From Artemia franciscana (lineage: Eukaryota > Arthropoda > Branchiopoda > Anostraca > Artemiidae), in assembly GCF_032884065.1 (NCBI RefSeq), contig NC_088864.1:25295865-25359864 (forward strand): a DNA stretch of 64,000 bases, given 5' to 3'. The notes under the pieces are model-generated. The model had not been told where the DNA came from and ran no database searches. It saw nothing but the letters and a program-made list of their open reading frames with translations. The position numbers were made by a program, and so were the translations under genes. Positions 2,355 through 53,142 of this stretch are shown here, one piece after another. The stretch's first letter is position 1, and every line of letters starts with the position of its first letter.

Positions 2355-2835
2355 TTAAGTTGAAACTTTCAGGGTATGTTAAGGAGAATGTTGAACTAAT
2401 CAAAAGGCACATGTACACGCTACTACTGCTACCAATACAACTGGCACTGCTAAACCTTCTTCCATTACAACTACTACCACAAATAATACTACTAAAAGTA
2501 CAAAGAAAACTGCTAGTAGTACTTCTGAAACTAAAGGTATTATGGTGAATGTTTCACAGAATCTTGAGGAGGATGTTGAACGAAATTTATCGACAATATG
2601 TCGGTTCAAGCTATTAAAAGGGCGTAAGAGCTATGTCCCTGGAAAATCTCAGAGCATTAAGTTGAAACTTTCAGTGCATGTTGAGGGGCACGTTGTACAA
2701 ACCAAAAGGCACTATAAGCATACTAATATCACTAATATTACTACTACTTTTAATAATAGTAATAAAAAGTGCATTACAAACTTTGATTTCCGATTAAATG
2801 AGCCTTCTATCGATCTTTTAGGATCAATAGTTTGA
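2355..2835 (+). other. Duplicated Thr/Asn-rich coding-like module
   Basis: A block starting ATTAAGTTGAAACTTTCAG occurs at about 2354 and again at about 2657. It encodes an IKLKLS...KRH peptide, and each copy is followed by an ACT/AAT trinucleotide-rich tract. In frame 1 (about 2394-2835) the region reads as a Thr-rich segment, then a charged segment with the motif NVSQNLEEDVERN, then the second IKLKLS block and a second Asn/Thr-rich tract. The first IKLKLS block lies in a different frame from the Thr-rich tract that follows it. It could be an exon of a low-complexity secreted or adhesive protein, or a repeat relic. I do not recognise the family. Confidence 0.25.
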
Positions 2836-3274
2836 TACGATCATCTCTGGGGAAACAAAACCAACGAAAAAAACAAATGAATACTCATCCATGACATTTC
2901 TTCTGGCTAGAAAATGCAAAAATACATATTTTTGTATATAGGAGCTTTAAAGCTTAACAGTAGGGTTCTCTGATATCCTGAATCTGAAGATGTGATTTTC
3001 ATTAAGAGATTTTGATGGTTTCGGAGTTTTTCGCCCCTTTTTGAAAAATTGGGAGAATTTTCTCTGGCTCGTACTTTTGATGGTTAACATTAAAATTGAT
3101 GAATTTCAAGTATTTTGAAAGTTTCTGTTACTATTGAGCTGCATCACTCCCTACTTACAGTTTGTTACTTCAAACTGTTTGAAAACCGAATGATTTGAAA
3201 TATTCTTTCTCAACCAAAGAAAAAGGCTATTTAATTCAAATCGAACAGAAATTTAATCTAAAAGCATTTGTCCG

Positions 3275-4150: not shown

Positions 4151-4723
4151 GTGTTTTAACGTTAAGGCCGTGATTTAGTGAACTGATGGAACTCGAAAAT
4201 CCCATGTTAAATTGAAAATTTATATTTAAAAAGTACTCAAGTATTCATTGGCGGAAGATGCCGCTTTTAATATCAGGCCATAGCTTCTTGAAGATGCTAC
4301 AAAATGTTTGAAAGGATTTTGCTCTATTTCCTCTAATTGCTTAGAAATCTTAGAAAATGTCTAGGTCTTTTTCACAAGTGTACTCGATAAAAGATATTGC
4401 TTTTAGAATAAAATCGGTACTGTCATGAGCAGAAGACAATAACCTGTAAGATGATTGGAACTATTTTTCGATTTATTTTCCTGTTTTCTAACAGTCCCAT
4501 AGAATATTTTCAGCTACCTGAAATTTTTACAAGTCGGTTGCCAGAAAGAATCGTTTCAGATCACCGATAATACCCCCAAGAGACCAAAATGACAAGGTGG
4601 TATAATCAGCTGCTTGTTTATAGAATGTGAAATTTCCATAAATTATTTCAACGCAATGAAGAAACCTAGAAATAAGAAATAGTCAGGAGCCTTCAGTAAA
4701 GCTGTGCACACAAGGCCAAAATC

Positions 4724-5038
4724 ATGGAGAAAATTAAATCAAAGCGAGGTATACATCTTAAAAGTGTTACCACACATAGACAGCGCCTTTGTAAAAAGTA
4801 TTTGGAGCTTGGTAGATGTAAATATCCAAAATATCTAATAATGCGGTACCCTGAAGAACTAGACAAGTCGAGAGATTTAGGTCAATCGACAAACCTTGAG
4901 GCGGAGCAGAACCCCGTAGCTACTTCCCCGTTGCCCTACCGGATCGTGACTGGTGGTAGAAACTTGGATTGCGACGAATTGAAGGATTGCCGATGGATTT
5001 TTGATCCTGTATTTTTCGTGCGCGATCTAGAGACTTAA
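4724..5038 (+). CDS. Hypothetical 104-aa ORF, possible decayed CCCH zinc finger
   Basis: The ORF runs from an ATG at 4724 to TAA at 5038. It is unusually charged and ends just before the family A repeat at 5097. Residues ~22-42 read RLCKKYLELGRCKYPK followed by YLIMRYPEEL. The C-x8-C spacing and a following PEEL-type helix recall a C-x8-C-x5-C-x3-H finger of the kind in ZMAT5-like spliceosomal proteins. The third Cys and the His are absent, with Tyr where the His is expected. It may be a degraded retrocopy or a chance resemblance. No introns or neighbours help, and I cannot assign a function. Confidence 0.2.
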   Translation: MEKIKSKRGIHLKSVTTHRQRLCKKYLELGRCKYPKYLIMRYPEELDKSRDLGQSTNLEAEQNPVATSPLPYRIVTGGRNLDCDELKDCRWIFDPVFFVRDLET

Positions 5039-5111
5039 GTTTGGAAGCACAGGTGAGGAGGAAGCAACCCGTAAAAATCATAGAACCTTAACGAAATTAA
5101 ATAAAAAAAAA

Positions 5112-5379
5112 CAAGTTTTTTTAACTGAAAGTAAGGAGCGACATTAAAACTTAAAACTAACAGAAATTACTTCGTATATGAAAGAGGCTGCTTCCTCATC
5201 AACGCCCCTCTCTTTACGCTAAAGTTTGACTCTGTCTCTCAATTCTTCTTTTTAAAACAGTAAAACCCTTTAGCGTAAAGAGCGGGGCGTTGATGAGGAA
5301 GCAGCCTCTTTCATATACGAAGTAATTTCTGTTCGTTTTAAGTTTTAATGTCGCTCCTTACTTTCAGTTAAAAAACTTG
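5112..5379. repeat. Terminal hairpin of A1, ~113-bp arms
   Basis: The left arm (5112-5224) and right arm (5268-5379) are near-perfect inverted copies separated by a 43-nt loop containing TTTGACTCTGTCTCTC. The arms run from CAAGTTTTTTT at the outside to TTTACGCTAAAG at the loop. As RNA or single-stranded DNA this would fold into a very stable stem. Confidence 0.9.
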
Positions 5380-5967
5380 TTTTTTTTTTTATTTAATTTC
5401 TGAACGTTTTTGAATCAATGCATGTTTTGATTTTGGCTCTCCGCAGAGGAATAATTAAAACGAAATTTGCATTTTTTTTTTGGCTAAATGGCTTTCTCAT
5501 AATTTTGATCGAATGATTCTGAGAAAAAAAGAGCGGGGGAGGAAGCCTAGTTGCCCTGCGATTTTTTGGTTAATTAAAAAGGCAACTAGAACTTTTAATT
5601 TTTTACGAATATTTTTATTAGTAAAAGATTTACGTAACTTATAAATTCGCTTACATAAAGAACTTTTGTATTCTCATATTTTTATTACATATATGAGGGG
5701 GTTCGCCCCCTTGTCAGATCCTCGCGCTTTACACTAAAGCTTAAATTTTGTCCAAATTCATTAAGAATGAGCCCAGAATCACAAAAGCCGTAGAATAAAT
5801 AGTTGAAATTACTAAAAATACTTTAGCGTAAAGAGCGAGGTATTAGGAGGAGGTGAGCCCCTCAAATGGGTAATAATTTCTGTTTGTTTTAAGTTTTAAT
5901 GCTTTTCCTTACTTCCAGCTGAAAGAACTTTTTCATATTTATTTTTTCATTGTTTTTTTTTTAAATA

Positions 5968-6231
5968 ATGCTAGTAAATCCTGCGCTCCCTTCATGGATA
6001 TTTTCTTCCCCCATGACAAATTATCGATGGAAAGTACCCCCAGCATATCCCCCTCTTCTTAACCCCTCCCCAACCAAAAAAATCCTCCTGAAAACGCCTG
6101 TACACTTCCCAATAACCATTACTGTATGTAAGCATTGGTCAAAGTTTGTAACTTGTTGCCCCTCCCATGGGGACTGTGGGGGATTAAGTCGTCCCCAAAG
6201 ACATATTTATAAGGTTTTTCGACTACGCTGA
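5968..6231 (+). CDS. Recurring family A short ORF (87 aa), function unknown
   Basis: The frame encodes a peptide with the conserved C-terminal words TITVCKHWSKFVTCCP and HGDCGG...PQRH...VFRLR. Equivalent open frames occur in other family A copies at 7704-8000, 8731-9045 (minus), 23115-23414, 30653-30967, 47603-47864 (minus, disrupted), and in strongly diverged form at 19084-19317 and 40475-40762 (both minus). Several begin with a hydrophobic FIFSLFFLNNA segment. Three to four Cys are shared. It may be a real element-encoded peptide, or simply a frame kept open by recent common descent. Confidence 0.25.
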   Translation: MLVNPALPSWIFSSPMTNYRWKVPPAYPPLLNPSPTKKILLKTPVHFPITITVCKHWSKFVTCCPSHGDCGGLSRPQRHIYKVFRLR

Positions 6232-6864
6232 ATAAAATGGCTATCTCAGAATTTTGATCCGTTGACTTTGGTAAAATAATTAGCATGGGAGGGGGCCTAG
6301 GTGCCCTCCAATTTTTTGGTCACTTAAAAAGCGCACTAGAACTTTTCATTTCCGTTAGAATGAGCTCTCTTGCAACATTATAGGACAACTGGGTCGATAC
6401 GATCACCCTTGGGAAGAAAAAAAACAAAAAAAAAACAAATAAAATCGCATCCGTGATCTGCCTTCTGGCAAAAAATACAAAATTCCACATTTTTGTAGAT
6501 AGGAGCTTGAAACTTCTTCGGTAGTGTTCACTGATACGCTGAATCTGATGGTGTGATTTTCGTTAAGATTCTATGACTTCTAGGGGGTGTTTCTCCTATT
6601 TTCTAAAATAACGCAAATTTTCTCAGGCTCGTAACTTTTGATGGGTAAAACTAAACTTGATGAAACTTATATATTTAAAATCAGCATTAAAATGCAATTC
6701 TCTTGATGTAGGTATTAGTATCAAAATTCCATTTTTTAGAGTTTTGGTTACTATTGAGCCGGGTCGCTCCTTACTACAGTTCGTTACCACGAACTGTTTG
6801 ATTTACACCACCAGATTCAGCGTATCAGAGAATCCTACTGTAGTTTCAATCTCCTGTCTACAAT

Positions 6865-8470
6865 TAAACAAAAAAACAAAACAAGTTTTTTTAAGTGAAA
6901 GTAAGGAGCGACATTAAAACTTAAAACGATAAGAAATTACTCCGTGTATGAAAGGGGCTTTTTCTCTTCAACGCCCCGCTTTTTACGCTAAAGTTTTTTA
7001 CTGTTTTAAAATGTAGAGTTAAGAGAAAGAGTCAAGCTTTAGCGTAAAGAGCGGGGCGTTGAGGAAGAAAAGCCCCTTTCATTTACGGAGTAATTTCTGT
7101 TCGTTTTAAGTTTTAATGTCGCTCCTTATTTTCATTTTAAAAAAAATGTTTTTGTTTGTTTAATTTCTGGACGTCTTTGAATTAATGCATGGTTTGATCT
7201 TGGCTCTCGACATATAAATAATTAAAACGAAATTTGCATATTAATTTTTTGAGGCTAAATGGCTTTTTCACAGTTTTCATCGGAAGATTTTGAGAAAAAA
7301 GGAGCGAGGGAGGAGGCCTAGTTGACCTCCTATTTTTGATTACTTAAAAAGGCAACATTTACTTATTATTTTTACGAACGTCTTCGTAAGTAAAAAATAT
7401 ACGTAACTTACGAATTAAATTACGTAGCAAACTTCAATATTCGTATATTTTTATTGCGTATATGAGAGGGCTCATCCCTCGTTGATACCTCGCTCTTGAT
7501 ACTAAAGCTTAAATTTTGTCCCAATTCCTTAAGAATGACCCCTGAATCACAAAGGCCGTAGAATAAATAGTTGAAATTACTAAAAATGCTTTAGCGTAAA
7601 GAGCGAGGTATTACGAGGAGGTAGACCCCTCATATGCGTAATAATTTCTGTTCGTTTTAAGTTTTAATGCTGCTTCTCACTTTCAGTAGAAAAAAAACTT
7701 TTCATGTTTATTTTTTCATTGTTTTTTTTAAATAATGCTAGAAAATCCTGCGCCCCCTCCATTGAAAGTCTCTTCCCCCATGAGAAGTTCCTCATGGAAA
7801 AATCCTCCCCGGTAACCCTCTCCCCTCAAATATCCCCCCAAACCAAAAAAATCCACCTGAAAACGTATGTACACTTCTTAGTAACCATTACTATATGTAC
7901 ACACAGGTCAAAGATTGTAACTTGCAGCCCATCCAACGGGGACTGCGGGGGAGTAAGTCATCCCCAAAGACATAGTTATCGGGTTTTTCGACTATGCTGA
8001 ATAAAATGGCTATCTCAGAATTTTGATCCGGTAACTTTGGGGGAAAATGACCGTGGGAGGGGGCCTAGGTGCCCTCCAATTTCCCATCACCCCTGGAAAA
8101 AAAAAACAAATAAACACGCATCCGTGATTTGTCTTCTGGCACAAAATGCGAAATTCCACATTTTTATAGATTGGGGCTTGAAACTTCTACAACAAGGTTC
8201 TCTGATACGCTGAACCTGATGGTGTGATTTTCGTTAAGATCGTATGACTTTTAGGGGGTGTTTCCCCCTATTTTCTAAAATGAGGGAAATATTTTCAGGC
8301 TCGTAATTTTTGATGGGTAAGACTATTCTTGATGAAACTTATATATTTAAATCAGCATTAAAATGCCATTCTTTTGATATAATTTTTGGTATCAAAATTC
8401 AATTTTTTAGAATTTTGGTTACTATTGAGCCTAGTCGCTCCTTACTACAGTTCGTTACCACGAACTGTTT
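6865..8470 (+). repeat. Family A repeat, copy A2 (full-length)
   Basis: Same order of blocks as A1, directly following it in the same orientation: hairpin 6882-7150, second hairpin about 7460-7650, short ORF 7704-8000, right terminus ending CGAACTGTTT at 8470. The terminal hairpin loop is inverted relative to A1 (it reads TTACTGTTTTAAAATG...AGAAAGAGTCAA). Confidence 0.8.
6882..7150. repeat. Terminal hairpin of A2 with inverted loop
   Basis: The arms (from 6882 in to about 6993, and from 7037 out to about 7150) are the same sequence as in A1. The loop between them is the reverse complement of the A1 loop although the rest of A2 runs in the same direction. Confidence 0.85.
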
Positions 8471-8471
8471 A

Positions 8472-9420
8472 AAATGTGGAATTTTGTATTTTTTGTCAGA
8501 AGGCAGATCACGGATGCGTGTTTATTTGTTTTTTTTTGTTTTTTTTTCCAGGGGTGATCGTATCGACCCAGTGGTCCTAGAATGTTGCGATAGGGTTCAT
8601 TCTAACGGAAATGAAAAGTTCTAGTGCCCTTTTTAAGTGACCAAAAAAATCGGAGGGTGCCTAGGCCCCCGTCGCACGCTAATTATTTTCCCAAAGTCAC
8701 CGGATAAAAATTCTGAGATAGTCATTTTATTCAGCGTAGTCGAAAATCCTTACAACTATGCCGTTTGGGATGACCTACTCCCCCACAGTCCCCGTGGGAG
8801 GGGCTACAAGTTACTAACACTGACCAGTGCTTACATATAGTAATGGTTATTGGGAAGTGTACAGACGTTTTCTTGGGCGTTTTCATTTGGTTGGGGGCAG
8901 GGGTTGAGAAGAGGGGGATATGTTGGGGGAACTTTTTACGGAGGAATTTGTCATGGGGTAAGAAAATTTCGATGAAGGGAGCGCAGGATTTTCTAGCATT
9001 ATTTAAAAAAAACAATGAAAAAATAAAAATGGCAAAGTTTTTCAACTGAAAGGAACAGAATATTCCTATTATTATTTTCTTGTAAATATTAATTCCTGTA
9101 AATATTCCATAATAATTTCTGTTAAAAGGGACAGAAATTATTACGCATATGAGGGGCTCACCTCCTAATACCCCGCTCTTTACGTTAAAGTATTTTTAGA
9201 AATTTCAACTATTTATTCTACGGCTTTTGTTATTTAGGGGTCATTCTTAAGAAATTGTGACAAATTTTAAGCTTTAGCGTGAAGAGTGAGGTACTGACGA
9301 GGGGGTGAAACCCCTCATATATACAATAAAAATATGAGAATACAGAAGTTTCTTTACGTAAGCTAATTTGTAGGTTGCGTATATCTTTAACTAATAAAAT
9401 TTATTTTTACTTAAATTTTA
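8472..9420 (-). repeat. Family A repeat, copy A3 (inverted, partial)
   Basis: Reverse-oriented copy abutting A2. It starts inside the right-hand part of the unit (AAAATGTGGAATTTTGTATT) and runs back through the GCCTAGG block, the short ORF (8731-9045, minus, 104 aa) and the second hairpin. It lacks the terminal hairpin. With A2 it forms a palindrome whose arms are roughly 800-900 bp, with a ~300 bp spacer (about 8166-8471). Confidence 0.75.
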
Positions 9421-11080
9421 AGTAAAAAATTTAAAAATCTTTTTTAAAAATTTTAAATCTTAAAATTTTTATTTTACTTTAAATAATAAAATTTTATTTT
9501 TACCCAGCCAAATATATTACTATTTCTCGGCTGAAACATCTCACCAAAGGAAGCTGTCAATCAAAACCTTTGACAAGACTTGATAACTGGTGCTATTTGA
9601 AGTTTTGACAACCAACGGTCTCTAGAGAATTAAAAGACAGAAGGCTAACCTAACTTCAATTTTGAAGCTCGATGTTTTCAATTTCACTTAATCACGGCCT
9701 TAATCACAACCAAATTTTACATTATCATTGCTATTGTACATTATCATTAGTTTATAACCTAATTTTATTGTTTTCAGAACTTCGAAAAGAAACAAACAAT
9801 ACAATTTTGAAGGTCTATTCATAAAAAAATGATGGATCTGACTACCTATGAGCTTTTCTAATTTCTTACAACCTGAAGTGCTAATTAGGTCTTATGATCT
9901 AATACCAAAAATAAACCATTCTGTGTTTATTTTCTATTAAGTGCCTAGTAATTCAAAGTAGTTTGTTAAAAACCACTGGTCGTTGGACTAATTGGAAGAA
10001 CTCTTTTTTGCGCCATTGTTAAGTGACTTGACTTCTTTGAAACTTTGAAGAAGATCAATATACATTGACTTAAAAAAGGACCGTGACTCAATTAGACTTC
10101 AAGTAATCATGGAAATATGTCATTTTCTTAGAAGTTCAACTTTTTATTATTAAGTCTGTCAATCTCTTTTGTATCGACACTTTAATCAACCCTTTCCAAT
10201 TTATTTAGACTACTCATTTACACTAACTGTCATCATAAATTTTTTTAATGAAGAGTCTAAAGACGTTATCAAGGATCTATCCGAAAGAACAAAAAAAAAC
10301 TTTCAAAGAAAAGAAAAACCTTCCTAAAGAAAAGAGTGTTCAAAAGAAAAATGAGGTTTTTTTCTTCATCGTCTCTTTAGAATAAAGAATTTCACAGCCT
10401 TTTTCTTTTTCAAATACTTAAAGATGCAAACTAGAAATGTTTCGTATAATAGGGAGCTATAATGACCAAGATTTCTTCCAGTTGAGGAAGACATTTCCAT
10501 GCACTTCTGCTTGATTGCTCAAAATCTTTTTCAAAAAACCTTAATATGAAATAACAATAGAAGTAAAGGAATTGGCCCTGTCTATCAATATTATTTGAAA
10601 GTTAACTTTTTTGGCATATGGAACATGTTTATCACAAGGAACAATATAATGAAAAAGGAGGGACTTTTTTGGAATATTTCAAGTAGCGGTATCTCCTCCT
10701 CTTAAGAAGGATTTTCAACTAAGCACCGGTTTTTTAGCCTTGATTGACTGGCTTAAGAGAGTAGGGGAATTTTTTTCATGAGTTGGCTAAATTTTAATTT
10801 CATTACCTATACAATAATCCTCTCATTTCTTCTTCTATTTAACTGATATTCTCTTGTGAAGCTATTTAATCTTGTGAAGCTAATAAAAGCCTAATCTGGT
10901 ATTTAATCTAACGTAAACAAAGAAATGACAATATAAGCTACAGAGAAGATAAGAAGAACTAACTATGAAAAGAATACCAGGTCAGTATTTAGGTTTTTCT
11001 TTGTTCATGTTTTTTTTTTCTTAATGCCAGCAAGAGCTGTCACCAAGTCAGTACATCAAAATTGCCAGCCTTCTTTTCCC
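9421..11080. other. No recognisable gene
   Basis: AT-rich sequence, with a run of TTTAAATTTTAAAT words at 9410-9500. No ORF over 60 codons, transposon signature or RNA gene that I can support. Confidence 0.5.
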
Positions 11081-12100
11081 TGATTAAATAAAAAAAAAAT
11101 ATTTCAAGTAAAACTAATGAGCACAATTAAAACATAGAACGAAAAGGAATTATTCCGTATATGAGGAAGAATTCCCCGTTCTCAACCCCAGGTATTTACG
11201 TTAAAGCCTCAAAGTTCTATGAAGGAAACAGCATCTCCTTTAATATACGAAATAATTTTGCCTCATTTTAAGTTTTGATGTTGCTCCCTATTTTCAGTTG
11301 AAAAAACTTGTCTTTTTTATTTAATTTATAACCGTTTTTATGATCATAACAGGAAATCTCCTTCCCTTCCTCGTGCAAAAATTTTTCTCTAAAAATTACC
11401 CCCGGATAGGCCTACTTTCCTCTTCACGGAAAATCATATCGTTGAAAACCCATCCCCGCCGGTAGAAAATTTCTCCGAAGTTTTTGTATATTTCCAATAA
11501 CAGATACTATATGCGTAGCCTGCAGCCTTATCCTTACTGACTATGGGGGGGTTTATTTCATCTCATAGTTATTAGACCTTCAAAGTATACTGAATTTCAT
11601 AATATTCTATCACAACAATTTTGATGGGATATCTTTGGGGAAAAAAGGGGGTGGAAGGTGAGCTAGTTGCCATCCAATCCTTCTGACCACTGAAAAATTA
11701 TGCTATTGGACAATTGGTTCCGTACGATTATGTCTAGGGAAAAAAACTCAGACGTGATCTTTCTTCTGGCAAAAAAAAATATACAAATTCCACATATTTC
11801 TAGCTAGGTGCTTGACACCTCTATAGTAGGGTCTTCTAATATACTGAATTTGGTGGTGTGATTTTTATTCAGATCCCTTTGCTTATTGGGGCTGTTTTCT
11901 CTTTGAAACTCGATAAATATTTCTCATGTTCGCAGGTTTCCATAGGCACCATTAAAATGAATGAGTTTTATATATATAGAATCAGTAATAAAAGCCAAAT
12001 ATTCTTATGTATGTATTGTTATAAAGATTCCGGTTTTTAGAGTTTAAGCTACTATTTGGCCGAGTCACTCTTCCTTACAGTTAATTACCACGAACTGTTT
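11080..12100 (+). repeat. Family A repeat, copy A4 (old, diverged)
   Basis: Recognisable blocks occur in the canonical order: GTCTTTTTTATTTAAT near 11310, CCAATAACAGATACTATATG near 11492, the 'GTTGCCATCCAATCC' block, 'GTGATCTTTCTTCTGGC' at about 11755, 'CTGAATTTGGTGGTGTG' at about 11845, and the right terminus ACCACGAACTGTTTG ending about 12100. Divergence is much higher than among A1, A2, A6, A8 and A10. Confidence 0.65.
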
Positions 12101-13339
12101 GTTTATATTTTCTTTATAATATAAGCTAACTGCCCTTATTATTTAGTGTCTCCTTCTTTCCGATCAAATTAATTATCAAATCTATTTAACTGATAAACAT
12201 TCTGTTGGGATTATAAGTTAAGAGGTCAAAAGCTATTGTTCCTTCCTCCTTAGAACTCCTCCCTCCCAATGAAGGCAAAAAAGACAGCCATCTCCACATT
12301 TTGCCAAGTATGCCTCGACTTGCAGCACACTGCCATGATTCCTTAACCGTCCGAAACACCACGGACCCTGCTTTTGTTGCTTAGCGGCTTAGAAGGTCTT
12401 ACTCTAATTACTAATCATATGTCGTTATTGAAAGGCAAAATTAAAATTTCAGACCTTTTCCTATTCTTCGCTATTTTTAGAGGGGATTGGTATTCCATCT
12501 TTGGCTTTTCTCGGATTTTTTTCTTATGTGTACATATGTTTGAATTTTCCGTAATTACTGCTTTTTTTCCCCTATTTTTTGCTTTTAATTCAAATTTGAC
12601 ATATGTAGTCTTTAACATAGATTTTAACATGAAATACTAACTCGTCCTATCTCTAGTTGAAGTCTATAGGCTCAGAAACTACATTCGAAACTTCAAGTTC
12701 CATTTAGGTCTATGCGCTTTCGATGCGAAACTGAATCACTCACAACTTTGAAAAACTCCTTGTTTCTTATAATGCTCCATTTGACATGAACAACTGCCTA
12801 AAAAGACAGAAGAAACCTGTCTTGACATTCAATTTAGCTAGCAAGCACTGTTGAACCATGATGTGTTGAAAAAAAGAAGCAACCTCTATATTAAACTTTA
12901 AACTCGGCTATCAAAATCTAGGGCCCTAAAATCTGATTGAAATTTAAATAAATCACATTAATGTTGGTTGTTACTTCCGTCATTGAAGAATTTTACTTTC
13001 TTCTTTTTTAATTCCGTGGAAGCATTCCAGTCCAGCTGTATTAATGCCTATTTAGCTTTAGTGAAGATCATTTGAAAGCCCATTTCGTGGAGCATTTGAA
13101 GTCCATTGTAGTCCGAGTGTCGTTAATTTGACCTGTAGTATATTGATTATTTTTGAGTTTAACTTCAAGTTTTATGTATTGGATTACCCAGTCATCTGAG
13201 TAATTTCTTTATTATAACATCTTTCACAGCGTGAGACTGCTAAAAAAAAAAAAGTTTAGTTGTTATGTGGAAAAGCTTTTTGCTAGTTGCCCAAGTGAGA
13301 AAAATGTTGGGAGACTCTCATATGACCCCGAATCCCCCA
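12101..13339. other. No recognisable gene
   Basis: AT-rich sequence. Open frames at 12374-12640 on both strands are hydrophobic or Lys-rich and look compositional. I see no exon or repeat that I can name. Confidence 0.45.
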
Positions 13340-18569: not shown

Positions 18570-19765
18570 ATCAAACAGTTCGTGGTAATGAAATTTAAAA
18601 ACAGATATGTGATACCAATAAAAATATCGAAAGAATCGGCTGATTATGGAGATTCAACTTTCATTAAGTTAAGTATTACTCATCAAAAGCTACAAGCTTG
18701 AGAAAATTGTCTGACTTCCAAAAAAAGATAGAGTTTTAATGGAAACCACACAATGAGATTTAGTGTATCAAAGAACCCTACTGTAGATGTTTGAAGCTCC
18801 TATGTGCCAAAATATGGAATTTGTTATTTTTCCAGACAAAAGATCAAGGAGACGTGTTTATTTATTTGTTTGCTTGTTTTTATTTCCAGGGGTGATCATA
18901 TCAACCCAGTGGGTCTAGAAAATCAGAAGAGGGCTCATTCTAACGGAAATGACAAGTTCTAGTGCCGTTTTTAAGTGAACAAAAAATTAGAGGGCAACTA
19001 GCCCCCCTCCCACGCCTTTTTTTTCCGAAAATCGTCCGATCAAAATATAGAGATAACTATTTTGTTCAGCATAGTTGAAATGCTCAATAACTATGTCTTT
19101 GGAGATAACATGACCCCCCACAGCCACAGGGGAAAGGTCTGCAAATTATGAAATTTGCCCACTGTTTACGTATAGTATCTGTGATTGGGAAATATGCGTG
19201 CATATTTAGGGCGGAGAGGGGAGGACGAATTTTCTGCTGAGGGGATTTTGCACGGGAAAAATTTTCCATGGAGAGGGAAGTTTCGAGGAGGTAAACTTTC
19301 AAGGGGAAATTCAACACCGGGGGAATACGCCAGAGTTCCTATACGAAATTTGTGTATGTATTGCTTTCTGTTTGCCGATTCAATTTTACATGTGGATATA
19401 TTAAAGGTAGTTGTCCGGGGTAAATTTCCACCAGGATTGAATTGCACAGAAGATATTTCCGTGGGAAGGAGTATTTTTCTGGGCAAGTGGAGCCAGATAC
19501 CCTACCCCCCCCCTCCTCAACACCTCGCTCTTTACGCTAAAGTTTTAATTCTGTCCCAATTCACTAAAAACGACTCCTGAAATACAAGGGTCGTTTTATT
19601 AGAACAATAAGTAACTTTTTTAAAGGTGCCAAAAGAGTTTAGCGTGGAAGAGCAAGGTGTTGAGGAAGGGGCAAACCCATTATATACGTAATAGTTTCTA
19701 TTCGTTTAAGTTTTAGTGATGCTCCTTACTTTCAGTTGAAAAAAAAACTGTTTTTTTTTATTATT
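18570..19765 (-). repeat. Family A repeat, copy A5 (diverged, inverted)
   Basis: Starts with AAACAGTTCGTGGTAATG (the terminal palindrome) and runs through the block order of family A in reverse. It ends with GCTCCTTACTTTCAGTTGAA at about 19720. It carries a diverged form of the recurring ORF at 19084-19317 (minus; words YFPITDTIRKQW and CGCGG). The terminal hairpin is imperfect. Confidence 0.65.
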
Positions 19766-22345
19766 TAATATAGAAAATGGGAGCACGTGTCCTAGTTTCA
19801 CTTTCCGTCATCCAAGTCTGATCAATCTTCAGCGAGAAGTGCACTGGTGGATGTCAAGATTCTTTTATCTACATATATTTAAAAAGGCTACCAGAGGTCA
19901 AGCAGAGTTGCCACGGGTAGTATCAAAGCACTGGTTTTATTACTTTTTGATGAAAGTATTACTTCTTGAATACTTTCTATGAAAGGAATACCTTTCCAAT
20001 ACTTTTGTCAATAGTATTACCCTATCTAGAAAAGGGTAATATCACAGGGATATTAGAAATAAAAAATAAGTTATGTCATTGCTCATATCACTGGTTTTTT
20101 ACCATTCAGTTTAGCGTATTAAATTACCATTCAGTTTAAAATATTTTAAAATCTTTTGTGGCAGACTTCTTGATGTCTTTTCGATAGTGCGCTCTCGTAG
20201 ATGTTAATTAAATTCAGAAGTTTTAGAATTTATAATTCGACCTGATGTAATCTTCACTTCAAATGCTTAAAACATCCAGAAAAGTAAATGGTAAAGGTTT
20301 AGATTAGTCTCCTGATAAAAACAGCTTATTCGTACATCATGTTATTCAGTCAAATGGGCTGTAAAGTTGCACGGATACCTTCCAGTAGAAGCAGGATATA
20401 AAAGAATAACAGAAAAGGTTAAAATTAGCTATTGCCGAAGTATAGGATGCAGTGGTTCTGTACCAACATGTAGAATATACAGTAAGAAGTAAATACTTAC
20501 ATATTGATTCGACTGAGCAGCATTTCTTCAAATCCACAGGGTAAAAAATTGTTTTTCCTTTAATTTAGATCGGAAGAAAGCTAAAATTAAAAAAGAAATT
20601 AGGATTTTTTAGAAGGAGGGCGAAACACCTAGAAAACAGCGTGACAGCAATACAAAAAGTACACCATTGGACACTCCATTATTAAAAACCCTAAACTGAA
20701 AGTAAAAAGAAGATACCACAAGGTTTTGAGTCTGATAATGTTAGTGTGATGCTTGAAAAGGATAACAGCCTTAAAGCCATGAAGGATAACATCTCTCATA
20801 AAGAAAGATATTCCCGGGCTTACTGTCTTTGGATGTAGCTGTCACAGCTTTGCACTATGCCCTGCTAAGGTTTTATGAGCAGTTGCCTACAGAGATTATG
20901 AGGTCCATTACAGTTATATACACACAAACATATCAAATAGTCCCAAACAAGTCTAAATAAAAGAACTGGAACTTCAACATAAGGAATTTCAATATTTCTT
21001 TGAAGTAGCTGAGTATGCACTCCTGCACCCTTCTTCAACTTGCTGGTTAGCTTTTAAGGCCGTCTCCAAGAAGTTGGTGATACAGTTTACTGCTTTGACG
21101 TTGTTTTTTTGCCATACTTTGGGTTAAACAGTAATGAAGCTTTGTAAAGTTTTGGTCGACCCCAAGTCTAGCTGTATTACCTATTTCTGAATTTCACTCC
21201 GTCTACGGCCTAAATTTTGAATTTCAGACCCCGGAGGGGAAAATACACGATCTTTTAAATAGCTATGGTGACACTCTCAAAACTGGCAAGGAATTATATC
21301 AAATATTAGCTTTTCACCACACGTTCAGATTTCGGAATAGATTTTTCAAACCCAAGAAACTTTAAATGCATGGAGATGGAAATAAATTTTAAAATTGATC
21401 ATTTTATGATTTGATATTTTACAATTGATGAGAATGACAGTGAGAAACTTGAATACTGACGGCTTGTGGCGACAAAAGACAATTGCCTTCCGTTTTAAAT
21501 CGGGAATTTCTTTGAAATAAAGTGAAGAGTAAGTAAAGTAAGTGAAGACCCCTTCTTCAAATACTAGCCTGGTTATCTCCAAAACTGCTTTATACAGATG
21601 AGCTCCTTCTATAATTTCTCTTTTACACATATTCAGGAACCGCTTCAATGTGTTTTTGGAAGTTGAAGCCCTTATTAGAGAGTGGAGATGACAACCATTT
21701 TTAAACGATGAGCTAGGTGACGGGAAATGTCAGTTTTGGAATTCAGTGTCTATCTTTAAGGACGGCATTGAAGACTCTGCTTTCATTAAAATACCTGTAT
21801 TCACGAAGGTTATTATGTTGTTGCCTCGTAGCAGCCCTTTGTCTCATGTCAGTAGGGAAGGAGGTACTGGATCCAGAGACTTGAGATATTCCAATAGAAC
21901 TAATCAGGTGCACAAAGAAGTGGAAGTCGAAGCTAAACGAACTTGCAAAAAACTTTTTAGATGATTATATTTGTTTTGATAGTCTTTTTAGCTATAAGCA
22001 GATAAAAGAATCTAGACATCCACCCATACACCTCTCGCTGAGGCTTTATCAGATATGGAAGACGAAAACTGAAACTAGGACACGTCCTCTCATTTTCTAT
22101 ATAAAATAAGTTATAAAGATAAGTTTTTTTTTTCAAATGAAAGTAAAAACAACGAATAAAACTTAAACAAACAGAAATTATTGCGTACAGGGAAGTGATA
22201 CCACCCTCCTCAATACCTCGCTCTTCACGCTAAAAATTTTGTACTTAAAACAAAGTTCTATTTGTATAAAGTTCTAATTCTATAAAGTTCTAAAAAAAAG
22301 TTTAGACGACCCTTGTACTTCAGGAGTCGTTCTTAAGAAATTAAA
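19535..22345. mobile_element. Composite foldback element enclosing a hAT-type relic
   Basis: Sequence at about 19535-19890 is repeated in inverted form at about 21975-22345. The outer part is family A hairpin sequence (shared words CGACCCTTGTA and CAGGAGTCGTT). The inner ~120 bp is unrelated to A: TATAGAAAATGGGAGCACGT on the left matches the reverse of ACACGTCCTCTCATTTTCTA on the right, with shared GGTGGATGTC and ATTCTTTTATCT words. The central ~2.1 kb contains decayed hAT-type transposase. Either a long-TIR DNA transposon landed between two inverted A copies, or the A copies and TIRs moved together. Confidence 0.55.
20640..21960 (+). pseudogene. hAT-superfamily transposase relic (ZBED/KIAA1586-like)
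   Basis: A single frame from about 20809 to 21113 with two stops reads VFGCSCHSFALCPAKVL, later SNSPKQV, ELQHKEFQYFFEVAEYALLH and SSTCWLAFKAV, then TALTLFF. This matches the conserved core of hAT-like transposases of the KIAA1586/SCAND3 type: C-x-C-H-S-x-A-L-C, then a S-P-K-x segment, FQ-x-F-x-E-V, and T-R-W-L-S with Arg changed to Cys here. Further relics follow, including LLNSYGDTL near 21258, LTACGDK near 21448, and a possible dimerisation-domain remnant in 21746-21964 (FTKVIMLLPRSSPLSHVS). Numerous stops and frame changes make it inactive. It lies inside the inverted-repeat element 19535-22345. Confidence 0.55.
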
Positions 22346-24007
22346 TAAAAAAACTAGTTTTTTAAATGAAAGTAAGGAGCAACATTAAAACTTAAAACGA
22401 ACAGAAATTACTCCGTATATGAAAGGGGCTTTTCCTCCTCAACACCTCACTCTTTACGCTAAAGTTTGACTCTTTCTCTTAACTCTATTTTTAAAACAGT
22501 AAGAAACTTTAGCGTAAAGAGCGGGGTGTTGAGGAGGAAAAGCCCCTTTCAAATACGAAGTAATTTATGTTCGTTTTAAGCTTTAATGTTGCTCCTTACT
22601 TTCATTTAAAAAAACTAGTTTTTTTAATTTAATTTCTGGACGTTTTTGAATTAATGCATGTTTTGATCTCGGTTCTCCGCACATAAATAATTAAAACGAA
22701 ATGTGCATATTAATTAATTGCAATTAACCCGAAGATTTTGAAAAAAAGGAGGGAGGGAGGAGGCCTAGTTGCCCTCCAATTTTTTGATTACTTAAAAAAG
22801 CAACTACAACTTTTAATTTTTTACAAACGTTTTCATTGGTAAAAAATATACGTAACTTACGAATTAATTTACGTAATAAACTTCTATATCGTATGTTTTT
22901 ATTGCGTGTATGAGGGGGTTCAAACCTCGTCGATACCTCGCTCTTTACCCTAAAGCTTAAATTTTGTCCCAATTCCTTAAGAATGAGCTCTGAATCACAA
23001 AGGCCGTAGAATAAGTAGTTGAAATTACTGAAAATACTTTAGCGTAAAGAGTGAGGTATAACAAGGTGGTCAGCCCCTCTTATGCGTAACATTTTTTGTT
23101 CGTTTTAAGTTTTAATGCTGCTCCTTACTTTCAGTAGAAAAAAACTTTTCATATTTATTTTTTCATTGTTTTTTCAAATAATGCTAGAAAATCATGCGCC
23201 CTCTTCATTGAAACTCTCTTCCTCCATGACAAGTTTCTCCATGGAAATATCCTCCCACGTAACCCACCCCCTCAAATCTCCCCCTAAACAAATAAATCCC
23301 CCTGAAGACGTCTGTACACATCCCAGTAACCATTATAACACAGGTAAACACAGGTCAAAGTTTGTAACTTGCAGCCCCTCCCACGGGGACTGCAGGGGAT
23401 TAAGTCGTCCTTAAAAACATTGTTATTAGGTTTTTCGGCTATGATGAATAAAATGGCTATCTCAGAATTTCGGTCCGGTGACTTTTGGGAAAAAATGAGC
23501 GTGGGAGGGGGCCTAGGTGCCCTTCAATTTTTTTGGTCACTTAAAAACGGCACTAGAACTTTTAATTTCCGTTAGAATGAGCCCTCTCGCGACATTCTAG
23601 GACCACTCAGTCGATACTATCATCCCTGGGAAAAAAACACAAAAAAAAAACAAACAAAAAAACAAATAAACACGCATCCGTGATCTGTCTTCTGGCCAAA
23701 AATGCAAAATTCCACATTTTTGTAGATAGGAGCTTGAAACTTCTACAATAAGGTTCTCTGATACGCTGAATCTGATGGTGTGATTTCCATTTAGGGGGAA
23801 CTTTTAGGGGGTGTTTCCCCCTATTTTCTAAAATGAGGCAAATTTTCTCAGGCTGTAACTGATCTTGATAAAGCTTATATATTTAAAGTCAGCATTAAAA
23901 TGCGATTCTTTTGATGTAACTATTGGTATCAAAGCTCCATTTTTTAGAGTTCCGGTTACTATTGAGCCGGGTCGCTCCTTACTACAGTTCGTTACCACAA
24001 ACTGTTT
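22346..24007 (+). repeat. Family A repeat, copy A6 (full-length)
   Basis: Terminal hairpin 22353-22618 (outer word ACTAGTTTTTTAAATGAAAG), second hairpin about 22900-23090, recurring ORF 23115-23414, GGGGGCCTAGGTGCCC block at about 23507, and right terminus ending ACCACAAACTGTTTG at about 24007. Confidence 0.8.
22353..22618. repeat. Terminal hairpin of A6
   Basis: Arms of ~110 bp mirror each other around a loop with TTTGACTCTTTCTCTTAACT. The outermost word is ACTAG rather than the CAAG of A1. Confidence 0.85.
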
Positions 24008-24009
24008 GA

Positions 24010-24800
24010 TTGGGGAAAGTTAAGTCGGGGGAGATAAATTAAGACAAATAAAAAATAATTTTCATTGGAATTTGTGTAGAATTCTGCCACTGCAAAATTT
24101 CCCATGAAAAGTCCACCCTCCAGAGACTTCCCTCCCCACGGAAAATTTTCCGCATGAAAAATCCCCCCGAGTAGAAAATTTGCCCCTCCAGTCCCAAAAA
24201 TATTAGTAGATAACAAATAGTATACGCAAACAATGGGCAAAATTATTGCTTAATAACCCTTCTCTTGGGCTATGGGGAATCTTGTAATATCTAAAGGCAT
24301 AGATATGGGACGTTTCAACTATGCTTAACATGGCTTTCAAAAAATTTGGACCACACGATTTTGGGAAAAAAGAGGCGTGGGAGCTACCCTCCATTCTTTT
24401 TGTTCACTTAAAAAGGGCGCTGTAGCTCTTAATTTCCATTTGAATGAGCCCTCTTCCGATATTCTAGGACCATTTGTTCGATACGATTACCACTGGAAAG
24501 AAAAATAAACATGCATCCGTGATCTTTCTTCTTAGAAAAAGTACAAAACATTTTTCACACACTGAATTTTTTTTATTATTTTAACGAGTTTATTAATATA
24601 ATTAAACGGCCTTTGTGATTCAGGAGTCCTTCTTAAATAACTGGAACAGAAACCCAAACTTTAGCGCAAATTGCCAGGTATTGAGGAAAGGGTGACCCTT
24701 CTCATATGCGTAAGGAATTTTTTGTCTGTTAATGTTGCTCCTTACCTTCAGCTGAAAAAATGTGTTATTTTTATTTAATTTCTGATCGTTTTTTAGCATT
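24010..24800 (-). repeat. Family A-related repeat, copy A7 (diverged)
   Basis: Contains recognisable but diverged A blocks: a short-ORF region with CCCCACGGAAAATTTTCC near 24135, the GGCGTGGGAGCTACCCTCC block at about 24375, AATGAGCCCTCTTCCGATAT at about 24442, CATGCATCCGTGATC at about 24510, and a degraded second-hairpin segment at about 24600-24700. Block directions are mixed, suggesting a rearranged copy. Confidence 0.4.
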
Positions 24801-26720
24801 ATTTAATAAACACATCCGATCAACATTTTGATATAGCCATTTTGTTCAACATAATTGAAGGATCTGGACAATATGTTTTGAGGATGACAATTCCTCCGCC
24901 CTCCATAGCCCTTAGCGCAAAGGTTGTGAGTTATGTCCTAGGGACGTACAAGGTTTTATAGAAAGCGTTGTCGTAGAAACATCAAAAAGGGTTCATTCAA
25001 TTGGAAATTGAGAGAAACTAACCCCCCTTCTACGCTCACCATTTCCCCGAACTCATCCAATCAAAATTGTGAAATCGACATTTTGTTCAACATCATTGAA
25101 AAGTCCGAAAATTATGTATTTGAGATGATGCTCTACATCCATTAGGGCAAGGGTTGTAAGTTGTACCCTGGAGGCATATAAGGTTTTTAATAGAAAGTGT
25201 TGTCGTAAAAACATCAAAAAGGGCTCATTCGATTGGAAACTGAGAGAACGAATACGCGAAAGTGGTTGGAGGGCAATCAACTCCCTTCCCAAGCCCACCA
25301 TTTCTCTAAGCACATCCAATCAAAACTTTGAGATAGCCATTTTGTTCAACGTAGTTGAAAAATCCGGAAATTATGTCTTTGAGTTTAACAACCCCCCACA
25401 GCCCTCACTGCAAAGGATGGGTGTCATGTCCTTGGGGCATATAAGGCTTTTATAGAAAGTGTGGTCGTAGAAACTTCAAAAGGGCTCATTCTACTGGAAA
25501 CTGAGAGAACTAGTGCCCTTATTAATAGTTGAAGGTGATCGAAGGGCAACTAACTTCCTCCCACGCCCAACATTTCCCCAAATACATCCAATAAAAACTT
25601 TGAGATAGCCCTTTTTTAACGTAGTTAAAAGGTCCGGATATTATGTCTTTGGAATGACCCCCCCCCCCCGTAGCTCTCAGGGCAAAGGTTGGGAGTTTTG
25701 CCCAGGGAGAATATTAAGTTCTTATAGAAAGTGTTGTCGTAGAAACTTCAAAAAGGGCCCACTATATTGGAAATTAGGAGGGCTAGTGCCCTTATTAATA
25801 ATCAAAAGTGATTAGAGGGCGAATGCACCCCTTCTCATGCCCTTCGTTTCCCCAAACACTTTCGATCAACATTTTGATATAGCCGTTTTGTTCAACGTAG
25901 TTGAAGAGTCTGGAAAACATGTTTTTGAGGATAATAACCTTCCTCCCCACCCCACAGCCCTCAGGAAAAGGGTTTTAAGTTACGTCACTGGGGGATATAC
26001 GATTTTTGGAGAAAATATTGTCGTTGAAACTTCAGAAATGACTCATTCCATTAGAATTTGAAAGGACTAGAGCCTTTTTAATTAGTTGAAAGTGATCAGA
26101 CGGCAAATAGCCCCTCCCTCCTATTTTCATCATTTCCCCAAACATATCCAGTAAAAAGTTTTAAGATTGCCATTTTGTTTAACGTATTTGAAAGGTTCGG
26201 AAATTCTGTCTTTGAGGACAACAAATCGTCCCAGCCCGTAGGGCAAGATTCAAAGGGATCGGAGGGAGGCTACCTCGCCCCCACACACACAAACACGTCT
26301 TATTATCCTGAAATGAATCTTATAGAAATTGTTATATAGTCATTCAATTCAAAAGAGTCTAGATAACCTATAACAAGGCTTTTGGGGTTGAAACAAATCC
26401 CAGAGCCCATGGGCAAGGGTTCTAAGTTATATCCAGTTGGTATTTAAGGTTCTTATGGAAGGGTAGCTGTATAAACTTGAGAGGATACTCATTTGGTTAA
26501 AAATTGGAGATTCTAGTTCCCTTCAAAGAGTCAAAATGATGTAGGGCAGCTAGCCCTCCCCCCGACTACCCCTCTTCACCAAACGAATCTGATTTGAATA
26601 TTTAGATAGTAATTTTGCTCAAAATAGTCAAAAAACAAAACAATGACTGTAAGGTCAAACAATGACACACACACCCCGTGCCCTGGGGATAGAGTTGTAA
26701 TTGATGGCATGGGGTCATGT
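24800..26720. repeat. Tandem array of a ~250-290 bp family A submodule
   Basis: A marker of the form ATTTTGAKATAGCCATTTTGTT, followed by CAACGTAGTTGAA, recurs near 24810, 25060, 25318, 25586, 25862, 26148 and, degraded, 26588. Spacings are about 250, 260, 265, 280, 285 and 440. Each unit also has a CCCCACAGCCCTCAGGGCAA-like block, a TATAGAAAGTGTTGTCGTAG block and an AGGGCTCATTC...GAAACTGAGAGAACTAG block. The same blocks occur once each inside family A copies, so this is a local tandem expansion of an internal A segment, with unit length growing along the array. Confidence 0.75.
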
Positions 26721-26891: not shown

Positions 26892-28496
26892 TCAACCTTC
26901 TTTTTTTCCTCTTTTTATTTCTTGAGACAAGCTTGAGTCCTTCGGTTTGTGGGCTGTTGCACATTTTACACAGGCTCTCTGATTTCCATGCCTCTTCCAA
27001 CCCTTGAGTCTAAAAATTTCAGGAAGTAAGGATTCATTCCAGAAGGATTCAAGCTTCGGAAATATTTTTTCCCAGTATTCTTTCGATCGGTGAACTGTAA
27101 TTATATCCCAATCGTCAATAGAGTTATAAACTATTAAGTGGCATATCATTTTATCCAGTATCTCGAGTTGGCCTTGTATCTGGGGGAAATACCTGTGATT
27201 TTATAGCTGAAGACCTTCACTGGATAATTCAAGAAAAAATCCTTTAGCTAAAGTTTTTGACAAAGCCATATCAAAAATGGTTTTGAACTCTGGTATATTA
27301 TGCACAGTTTTTATATCTATAGGTGTGCCATTAGGGAGCAGTCCATCTACAGATGCAGCAAGATACTGATGCTGTGGATGCACACTGAGTCCTATTTCAT
27401 CTCCCTTTATGACTTTTAAGTTGAATTTGCTTTCATATGCTTCTAGTGCCACTACTTCTAAATCTAAGCTCTTTTTCATTAGGGCAGAGCAGAATCTAGT
27501 TCCCAAGTTCCGAATTTGCTTAACGTTTGGGGCAACTCTGGTGTTATTTTTTCTGGTTGCAATTCTGTGAAAGTAGCTGATAATTATTTTCTTCGATCTT
27601 TCTTCAACCCAATTTTCATTTTTGGATTGGCCCTTGGTAATGTTGAATAAAAAGCTTATACTGGCAAAATCCAATTTTAAATACTGGTCAGTATATTTTT
27701 GTATGGCCAAATTTATTTCATCAGAAGTCATGTCTGGCTTATTGCAATTTGGTCCATAGTCACGATCACCAAAGTTATAATTTCTATTTTTTAACTTAGC
27801 AACGTGTTTTCCTCCGAGAGCACTATAATAACTGGTCAAATTACGTTTAGATCTTAAACGAAGTTTAGCCGTTTTATTGCAATATTTTATTGTTACGCTA
27901 GAAGGACTAAGCCGAAAAATATTTTTCCAAGTTAATTGATGCCATTTTGGACCTGAATTATAAGCAAGACCTACTCCATTAACTCTTGCATAGTATGAAC
28001 CTCGTTTAGACCGGCTTATTTGCTTTCCTCCGAAGAATTTTGCAACAACTGATATGTAGCTTTCAGCTAAGTTTGTAGTTGCGTCATTTCAAAGCTGCTC
28101 TGCTTTTCGACACACAATTTTGACCCCTGTCATAACATCTTCAAACACATGCAGGGGAAAAGTATTCGACCGACCTTCTATTTTACCGTTCACGGTCAAT
28201 TCAGCAATCTTAGGACAGCCAGAATAACATTTTGTGTGGTTTCCGAAAACAAGGTACCGACCTCTTTTTAACAAGTTTTTCAATTCTTCCGCTGTTTCAT
28301 TATTTTCAAAATTTGTTTTTAACGCAGCCCTTAAATTTTTTGTCAGTTGCTGGATAATTCATCTGGGAAGAAATTTCGTGTACAAAACTTTTTTATTTTT
28401 GCACAAATTATATAGATGAGTTGTATAATTTTTTTGAACGTGATTTGCACATTCATGTTTCCGTATGTTGGAACCATAGGAAACACTCTGTTTTAG

Positions 28497-28554
<58 letters not shown>

Positions 28555-28875
28555 GAATCACCGTCACCGATAAACTCTAAAAACTGTAATCCGTACATCT
28601 GCTCACTGGAACGAAAGCATTGAACTAGAATATCTGTTTCCATTCTCTTCGGATTTCCGTTATAATTCAGAAAGCAGAAATGATCTTTGGGTATTACTTT
28701 GGCGTTTGCAGAAGAAAAACATATATAACAGTATTTATTTCTTATGCCAACATATAACAGTTTTTTCGTAAATGCATCTATGGTAACTGCAACACATCCT
28801 TTTACCGAACAATCATGTCCTTTGCTACGCTTTTTCCAGCCTCCATCACATATCACTTTTGTCCAGTATGAGTCC
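26892..28875 (-). pseudogene. Mutator-like transposase fused to YqaJ-type exonuclease, disrupted
   Basis: One minus-strand frame can be followed from about 28875 to 26892. The N-terminal part has CDGGWKKRSKGH (first Asp), KLLYVGIRNKYCYIC and FIGDGDS (second Asp), then KHECANHVQKNY and YLVFGNHTKCYSGCP. This is the DDE core of the Mutator-like domain that arthropod proteins carry upstream of a YqaJ domain. The C-terminal part has HPQHQYLAASVDGLLPNG and IDIKT (the D...(D/E)xK nuclease motif), then YFPQIQGQLEI and YWEKIFPKLESFW. The frame is broken by TGA at 28359-28361, TGA at 28089-28091 and TAA at 27201-27203. A 53-bp poly(T) lies just after the GDGDS motif. Sequence upstream of DGGW is lost against a satellite. 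It is a transposon gene relic, probably self-encoded recombination machinery. Confidence 0.8.
28500..28552. repeat. 53-bp homopolymer A run (poly-T in the transposase frame)
   Basis: An uninterrupted A tract on plus lies within the Mutator/YqaJ pseudogene. The flanking coding sequence resumes in the same frame on both sides, so the tract replaces or pads a few codons after GDGDS. Length is prone to sequencing and assembly error. Confidence 0.9.
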
Positions 28876-28914: not shown

Positions 28915-29850
28915 CCCGGTCAGGATTTAAAATAAGAGCTCTGAGACACAAGATCCTTCTAAATATCAAAATTCATTAAGATCCGATCACCCACTCATGA
29001 ACTAAAAATACCTCATTTTTTCTAATTTTCTCCTCCTTTCAACCCCCCCCCCAAATAATCGAATCGGGTGGGGGGAAATTATCAAGTCAATTTGTGCAGG
29101 TCCCTGAAACGCCTGCCAATTTTCATCGTCCTAGCACATCCAGAAGCACCATAGTACTGGACCCCCTAACTCCCCCAAAGAGAGCGGATCCAGTCCGGTT
29201 ACGTCAATCACGTATCCAAGACATTTTCTTATTTTACCCACCAAGTTTCATCCCGATCTCTCCACTCTAAGTGTTTTGCAAGATTTCTGGTTTCCCCCTC
29301 CAACTCTCACCAGTGTCAACAGATCTGGTAATTAAAATAAGGGATTTAAAATAAGAGCTCTGAGAAATGAGTTCCTTCTAAATATCAAATTTCATTAAGA
29401 TCTGGTCACCCGTTCTTAAGTTAAAAACACCTCAATTATTCTAATTTTTCCGAATATACAACCCCCCAACTCCCCTAAAGAGAGCAGATCCATTACAATT
29501 ATGTCAATCACGTATCTAGAGCTTGTGCTTATTCTTCTCATCACGTTTCATCTTGATCTCTCGACTATAAGTGTTTTCCAAGATTTCCCGTTTCCAAGAT
29601 TTCTTTTTCCCCACTCCAGCCCCCTATGTCCCCAGATATGATTCGGAATGAAAATAGGCCATCTGAGACATAAGATCTTTCTATATGTCAAGTTTCATTA
29701 TGATCCAATCGCCCATTCGAAAGATGAAGAAACCTCAGTTTTAACGTTTTCCAAGATTTCCAGTTTCCGCCTCCAACTCCCCCCAATGTCACCGGATCTG
29801 GTCGTTATTTAAAATAAGAGCTCTGAGGCACAAGATACTTCTAAATATGA
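28915..29850 (+). repeat. Interspersed satellite units (TTTAAAATAAGAGCTCTGAG type)
   Basis: The word TTTAAAATAAGAGCTCTGAG occurs at about 28926, 29346 and 29810, with a degraded start near 29650. Within units the order is CTTCTAAATATCAAATTTCA, TTAAGATCYGGTCACCC, CAACTCCCCCAAAGAGAGC, TCAATCACGTATC, AAGTTTCATCCCGATCTC and CCAAGATTTC...TTTCCCCCTCCAAC. Units are ~420 bp or shortened. I recollect this satellite type from Artemia sequences; this is memory, not a search. Confidence 0.7.
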
Positions 29851-39692: not shown

Positions 39693-39899
39693 CTGGATGG
39701 AAAAAATGTCTTAAAAATATTTTAATCTAAACCAGCTGTCATTAATATAAAATCAAAAATGGCAGAATTAAAATAAAATAAAGTCGCGGTATGCAACAAA
39801 AGAGTATTTAGACAGTTATGGATTATGTTTTTTTCATTTTTTTCTATTTCTAATAATGTTAATTGTGATCGCATTTACCCAGTAATGAAATTTAAAAGC

Positions 39900-41395: not shown

Positions 41396-41489
41396 ATAGT
41401 ATACATATATTGATACATTCTCCCTAAAGTTATAATATTTTTTAATTTATTAAAGTGAAAAAAGGTAAAACTTTTTAAACGTATTTTGT

Positions 41490-51242: not shown

Positions 51243-51255
51243 TAGATAGATAGAT

Positions 51256-51257
<2 letters not shown>

Positions 51258-51326
<69 letters not shown>

Positions 51327-51816: not shown

Positions 51817-51818
51817 TA

Positions 51819-53106: not shown

Positions 53107-53142
<36 letters not shown>
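51819..53142 (+). mobile_element. Non-autonomous Helitron H3
   Basis: Clean 5' end TCTATATATATAAAAATAAG at 51819, TCAGGTGACGTCATG, minisatellite, A-rich AAAAACTAAAAAAG tracts (52115-52400), more minisatellite, two motif VI fossils (start about 52590 and 52918-53105) and a terminal TA tract. The downstream neighbour is an inverted Helitron 3' end sharing the CTAG at 53143-53146. Confidence 0.75.

Follow-up and report, generated by a model that had tools for sequence, protein, structure and literature searches.

What kind of mobile element has left repeats with very long hairpins in a 64,000-nt stretch of the Artemia franciscana genome (the window), and how did it spread? An earlier note on this DNA had taken the repeats for a foldback-type element with a mobility mechanism of its own. 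We find that they are real elements with precise ends, about 1.6-1.7 kb long and encoding no recognisable protein, and we place the family as a HINE-like variant that is unusual in the size of its 5' hairpin and in the matched evolution of the hairpin arms. With a probability that we put at roughly 85%, the repeats are non-autonomous rolling-circle transposons of the Helentron/Helitron2 clade. Short subterminal inverted repeats (subTIRs), a 3' stem-loop, a 5' hairpin bearing the 5' subTIR, and insertion at AA/TT without change of the target together make up the signature described for non-autonomous members of this clade, which takes the place of a mechanism peculiar to the element. A high-copy repeat of a 1.27-Gb genome is thus assigned to a known transposon class through its ends and empty sites.

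Copies, ends and terminal structures

A family profile built from the five best copies gives 48 overlapping matches in the window, which fall into 16 blocks and cover 24% of it. The earlier note had counted at least ten copies of fixed internal order; the repeats themselves hold up, but both ends are present only in A1, A2, A3 and A5, A4 has lost its 3' end, and what is left consists of fragments and decayed copies. Pairwise identity among the five copies of the profile is 80.0-89.4%, and the copies in the window are therefore not young.

5097-6800, plus strand: A1, complete (TTAAAT...CTGTTTG); ends by alignment, with an empty site in related units; its host site is copy B within a TTAA-flanked transposon (alignment and empty site)
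6864-8470, plus strand: A2, complete (TTAAAC...CTGTTT); inserted in copy B at consensus position 1408
22341-24008, plus strand: A3, complete; subTIR scan, flank alignment and profile
29845-31270, plus strand: A4, a mutated 5' end (ATGAAAT) and body, without the 3' end; alignment and profile
47069-48742, minus strand: A5, complete; palindrome and subTIR scans, alignment and profile
40907-41396, minus strand: A6, a 5' end with a 99% complementary hairpin, the remainder missing or decayed; hairpin search and profile
8471-9399, minus strand: copy B, piece to the right of A2 (consensus 528-1408); profile
6801-6863, minus strand: copy B, piece between A1 and A2 (consensus 1408-1473); profile
5040-5096, minus strand: copy B, fragment to the left of A1; by-eye alignment in the window
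2763-3183, plus strand: 3' end fragment; profile
11083-12101, plus strand: decayed copy with a 5' hairpin remnant and a 3' end; profile
18570-19302, minus strand: decayed 3' part, its subTIR gone and its stem-loop partly retained; palindrome scan and profile
24798-26689, minus strand: tandem array in which one segment from inside the element (consensus about 1063-1333) is repeated about 7-8 times; repeat scan and profile

Alignment shows that complete copies begin [A]TTAAA(T/C) and finish CTGTTTG[A], with flanks that diverge just outside; the terminal base of A2 is A where a relative elsewhere in the genome (L011) has G (CTGTTTA versus CTGTTTG). On the sense strand, an A/T-rich leader of 31-37 nt is followed by the 5' subTIR, the rest of the 5' hairpin, the body, the 3' subTIR and a palindrome. 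The subTIR is 12 bp long, reading GTAAGGAGCGAC at the 5' end and GTCGCTCCTTAC at the 3' end. At up to one mismatch GTAAGGAGCGAC occurs at 17 sites where 0.08 are expected, inverted between the two ends, as had been noticed before. It lies 31-37 nt inside the 5' end in the five copies measured, and the element ends 26 nt beyond the 3' subTIR in all four copies measured there. The terminal palindrome, the 20-mer CAGTTCGTTACCACGAACTG, was also correctly recognised and has 6 sites at up to three mismatches against 0 expected. It begins 2 nt past the 3' subTIR and forms a 9-bp stem with a 4-nt loop, found in A1, A2, A3 (with one mismatch) and A5; the A1 stem-loop folds with a z of -3.7 relative to shuffles.

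The long-armed hairpin reported at the 5' end is present in the window six times, with ungapped arms of 121-145 nt that are 83-99% complementary and spaced 35-43 nt apart.

5084-5408, 6870-7160, 22347-22624, 29831-30159, 41104-41390 and 48449-48735: the six long hairpins, inverted-repeat pairs I1-I6
5097-5395, plus strand: 5' hairpin of A1, enclosing the 5' subTIR (5131-5142) and its complement (5350-5361)
6870-7160, plus strand: 5' hairpin of A2, pair I6
6763-6800, plus strand: 3' end of A1, with the subTIR GTCGCTCCTTAC at 6763-6774, the palindrome CAGTTCGTTACCACGAACTG at 6777-6796, then TTTG

The ungapped arms of the A1 hairpin run from 5084 to 5224 and from 5268 to 5408. Because the ungapped arm extends 13-14 nt beyond the element's own end in A1 and A4, the arms within the element are roughly 120-130 nt long. 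Folded as DNA, the A1 5' hairpin reaches -137.6 kcal/mol compared to a shuffle mean of -29.0 (z -24.6). The second, internal hairpin described earlier is indeed related to the first, which it matches in inverted orientation by profile (83 bits in A1), but it is a weak, decayed relative: in A1 its fold has a z of -1.75, and 11 of 200 shuffles fold equally well.

Against Rfam, the whole window yields no family at the gathering threshold. Exact-pattern scans of viral and prokaryote sequence collections gave no match, nor did the element's sequence words in the literature searched.

Insertion sites and a TTAA-flanked carrier

The interval 5097-9420 is not a single element. It holds A1, A2 and pieces of B inside a TTAA-flanked DNA transposon, whose inverted ends are about 19 bp long. 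Both A1 and A2 lie within the older copy B on the minus strand, which is itself cargo of this transposon.

4162-9703, no strand assigned: TTAA-flanked DNA transposon, TTAA-GGCCGTGATT...AATCACGGCC-TTAA, carrying B and A2 and later hit by A1

This nest offers two comparisons of empty and filled sites, the check that had been proposed for mapping the ends. Copy B is split by A2 at consensus position 1408, where its two pieces overlap by one base in a run of T's; the other aligned copies read straight through this site. For A1, the filled site reads CGAAATTAAAT...CTGTTTGATTTACACC and the empty site CGAAATTTA(C/T)ACC in 18 of 20 related units, the other two having failed the pattern used; the uninterrupted site in the related units reads CCTTAACGAAATTTA(C/T)ACC. 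In units without A1, the profile traces B across the stretch to the left of A1 to about consensus 1513-1526. The junctions of A1 and A2 fit insertion at A|A (T|T on the other strand) with neither loss nor duplication of the target, to within an ambiguity of 1-3 bp.

Other junctions were also inspected. ATT stands at both junctions of A3, though not of A5, and any direct repeat shared by the two flanks of either copy is no longer than 1-3 bases. A family copy at L026 has a compatible 3' junction, TTTTA|ATTC, at a sequence that is intact in 14 of 20 units; its 5' end is missing. Among independent CTGTTTG 3' ends, with those of the A2 type left out, the next base is A in 8 of 9, and T in the decayed copy at 11083-12101.

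These junctions bear on the proposal that the family is a foldback (FB/TU/Galileo-like) transposon or a miniature inverted-repeat transposable element (MITE), moved by a DDE transposase that acts on terminal inverted repeats. Foldback elements and MITEs are characterised by fold-back DNA and high copy number, as is the family here, and the near-perfect long hairpin at one end together with short inverted repeats at both would suit such a transposon. The long inverted repeat, however, is found only at the 5' end; the repeats common to both ends lie inside the termini, at unequal distances from them (31-37 and 26 nt), so that there are none at the very ends; and neither the two empty-site comparisons nor the flanks of A3 and A5 show a constant multi-base target duplication. 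We therefore regard a foldback or MITE origin as highly improbable. The earlier judgement that the anatomy is unlike that of a MITE or of a short or long interspersed element (SINE or LINE) is borne out. As had also been noted, no transposase is recognised in the repeats. Nor are they internal pieces of a Maverick or a long terminal repeat (LTR) element, since the copies have precise ends of their own.

We searched the genome (1,270,528,402 bases in 6,468 contigs) with A2, obtaining 26,239 first-look candidates, of which 40 were scored. The nearest relatives share 3.82 kb with sharp ends, TTAA-GGCCGTGATTAAGTGAACT...AGTTCACTTAATCACGGCC-TTAA: all 20 of the closest copies fetched (L009-L028) lie within a TTAA-flanked unit, 18 of them end to end. 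In the two others, L012 is without the left end of the unit and the match at L026 halts at the inserted family copy. At L009 the TTAA unit sits within yet another family copy, whose sequence resumes past the TTAA. Since the closest A2 copies fetched are all found in the TTAA unit, these copies have spread as passengers of the TTAA-flanked transposon. Part of the family's abundance, namely that of the closest A2 relatives, is therefore owed to the carrier. Amplification of a rolling-circle element as cargo of a TTAA-flanked transposon is a caution for inferring activity from copy number.

A broader version of this idea is compatible with a HINE-like identity: the family would be mostly a relic, and its recent copies would have arisen through the TTAA-flanked carrier of A2 and of part of B. 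The 20 fetched A2 copies speak for it. They hold for the A2 type only, however; A1, A3 and A5 are flanked by other sequence and have precise ends of their own, A1 entered the TTAA unit later, and passenger spread leaves the original mobility of the elements unexplained. We consider it possible, though somewhat doubtful, as an account of the family as a whole.

Probable kinship with rolling-circle transposons and the search for a helper

Given these ends and junctions, we compared the family with described rolling-circle elements. HINE/DINE-1 elements have no coding capacity, carry subTIRs of 12-15 bp shared by both ends, insert at TT without changing the target and contain central tandem repeats (PMC4067079, PMC7492417). 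The family resembles them in its 12-bp subTIRs, in an inverted repeat complementary to the 5' subTIR, as in the DINE-1 and oyster types, in a 3' stem-loop just past the 3' subTIR, in the absence of a recognised protein, in insertion without clear target change at sites that fit TT/AA, and in its great number of copies. Oyster HINEs also carry tandem repeats built from internal sequence, and here the array at 24798-26689 represents them. Its units run head to tail with a period of 272 bp over 25270-25928, and it is satellite-like, grown from the interior of the element; it differs from the published arrangement in lying outside any complete copy. The arms of the 5' inverted repeat differ in scale, at roughly 120-130 nt here versus 7-12 bp in the oyster elements.

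A second comparison is with Helitron2. According to PMC3627910, its 5' repeat lies 0-2 bp from the 5' end and forms a 5' hairpin with the sequence downstream, and its 3' repeat lies 20-30 bp from the end, directly before a hairpin. The family shares with Helitron2 the asymmetric terminal inverted repeats, a 5' repeat within a hairpin whose changes come in pairs, a T at the 5' terminus, and a 3' repeat that stands directly before a hairpin at 26 bp from the end, within the Helitron2 range. It differs from Helitron2 in its far larger hairpin, in the 31-37 bp between the 5' repeat and the end, and in having no Rep-helicase protein (RepHel) in the element.

If the kinship holds, the RepHel of an autonomous Helentron-like element would nick the 5' end and peel off one strand by rolling-circle replication. 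Replication would halt at a 3' signal made up of the subTIR and the stem-loop, and the displaced strand would be joined into an A|A (AA/TT) site. In the model set out for Helitron2 in PMC3627910, the 5' subTIR would alternate between pairing within the hairpin and pairing with the 3' subTIR, marking the endpoint of replication. We infer the Helentron-type protein as mover, the single-stranded intermediate and the subTIR switch.

Rolling-circle proteins of another kind are abundant in this genome, which raises the alternative that the family is a non-autonomous derivative of a canonical Helitron1 (5'-TC...CTRR-3', inserting at A|T). The best-scoring RepHel of the genome is of the Helitron1 type. 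All 150 scored matches, from 7,436 first-look candidates, lie above the cut-off, and the motif RGLPH(A/T)H is present in 29 of 30 fetched loci (L029-L058). A 3' stem-loop, moreover, is common to both groups. In contrast, the ends here are TTAAA and CTGTTTG rather than TC and CTRR, the target is A|A rather than A|T, and subTIRs with a 5' hairpin are traits of Helitron2 and Helentrons. A Helitron1 derivation is accordingly very unlikely. These abundant RepHel genes were set aside as partners because their motif is of the Helitron1 type. A Helitron_like_N remnant in the window (56.5-57.5 kb), recognised by a Pfam match and plain translations, was set aside with them.

The remnant is a degraded Helitron RepHel at 56539-57522. 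Across the genome the 150 matches are near-equal in score, many of them in frames of 1500-1700 aa, which suggests recent Helitron1 activity. For the published female A. franciscana assembly (1.27 Gb, 21 chromosome scaffolds, 6,486 scaffolds), PMC11492255 gives a Helitron content of 8.81%.

A search with a Helentron probe peptide revealed a true Helentron protein in the host genome, encoded in an open frame of 2446 aa (contig C4112; L060, L070 and L071). We call it so because its Rep motif, FFRVEFQQRGSPHIH, contains the S that PMC4067079 gives as diagnostic of Helentrons. Its domains are UCH, DUF6570, Helitron_like_N, PIF1 and Exo_endo_phos_2. The helper class therefore exists in this genome, and a protein of this kind may have moved the family.

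The ubiquitin C-terminal hydrolase in the 2446-aa frame precedes Rep, helicase and AP-endonuclease. A second Helentron lineage (L072) has such a hydrolase too, adjoining the end of its frame.

Three further candidate partners were examined, and none could be tied to the family in the sequence fetched. The C4112 Helentron has no family match in its flanks, of which 961 bp were covered upstream of the ATG and 269 bp, as far as the end of the contig, downstream of the stop codon. The second lineage (C6, with frames up to 2701 aa) has no family ends in 2.5 kb around the end of one frame. At L062, where a family end stands beside a Helentron fragment, the end belongs to a separate family copy adjoining a truncated Helentron.

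Several observations weigh against placing the family in the Helentron/Helitron2 clade. The distance of the 5' subTIR from the end, 31-37 nt, exceeds the published 0-4 (2-4 in mite HINEs); we treat it as a variant trait. The target is A|A in the orientation of the element, whereas published HINEs are flanked by T's. The A1 junction shares three bases (ATT) with its empty site and can be placed anywhere within them, which would allow a duplication of at most 3 bp at this site. Among the Helentron flanks fetched, no autonomous element sharing the ends of the family was found; the oyster HINEs, too, were left without an assigned partner (PMC7492417). Finally, A2, A4 and B each have a similar short open frame (110-154 aa), and the three pairs of these copies give a rough ratio of nonsynonymous to synonymous substitution (dN/dS) of 0.55-0.63, which leaves room for a small protein that would be unexpected for HINEs. 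A1 and A3 carry breaks in this frame, most gaps have lengths not divisible by three, the third-position excess is not consistent, and a Pfam search with the A2 peptide gave no match.

Arm evolution in the 5' hairpin and other features of the window

To follow the two arms of the 5' hairpin, we aligned the six hairpins over 100 columns, with gaps counted as a state. Arm positions match within copies in 563 of 600 cases. The same departure from the consensus appears in both arms in 23 cells, and in a single arm in 35. When the arms of different copies are mispaired, two-arm changes average 4.6 and never exceed 11 (265 derangements); of all 720 possible pairings, 2 attain the observed value, the true pairing among them. 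The mispairing control corrects only partly for the kinship of the copies, and A4 has no two-arm changes at all. In the five aligned copies the second arm ends at the same outer boundary. This shared boundary indicates that the inverted duplication is ancestral and that the arms were kept alike later, by selection or by copying from arm to arm.

One tentative explanation gives the giant 5' hairpin a function in a Helentron-type element, with active upkeep of its self-complementarity: a single-stranded stage might let one arm correct the other, and each source lineage would then carry matched arms. The genome would in that case preserve, in the co-varying arms, a trace of the single-stranded intermediate through which Helentron-type elements move, and the family would be a structural subgroup in which the 5' subTIR has moved away from the end and into a stem longer than 110 bp. 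It has been proposed that rolling-circle replication takes its endpoint from pairing between the 5' and 3' repeats, and the oversized, co-evolving hairpin offers a natural test of this idea.

Elsewhere in the window, Mutator-like transposase fragments (PF20700) lie at 27201-28874 on the minus strand, along with a weak match to a YqaJ-type recombinase below the curated cut-off. An ion-channel exon (Ion_trans_2) at 39308-39721, also on the minus strand, looks like part of a two-pore potassium channel and is the clearest host gene among the scanned frames. Units resembling TTTTTTAGT and TCCCGGTCGTCATTTATA form large tandem arrays over 49588-55225, where the same consensus units recur near 49.6-51.1 kb and 53.4-55.2 kb.

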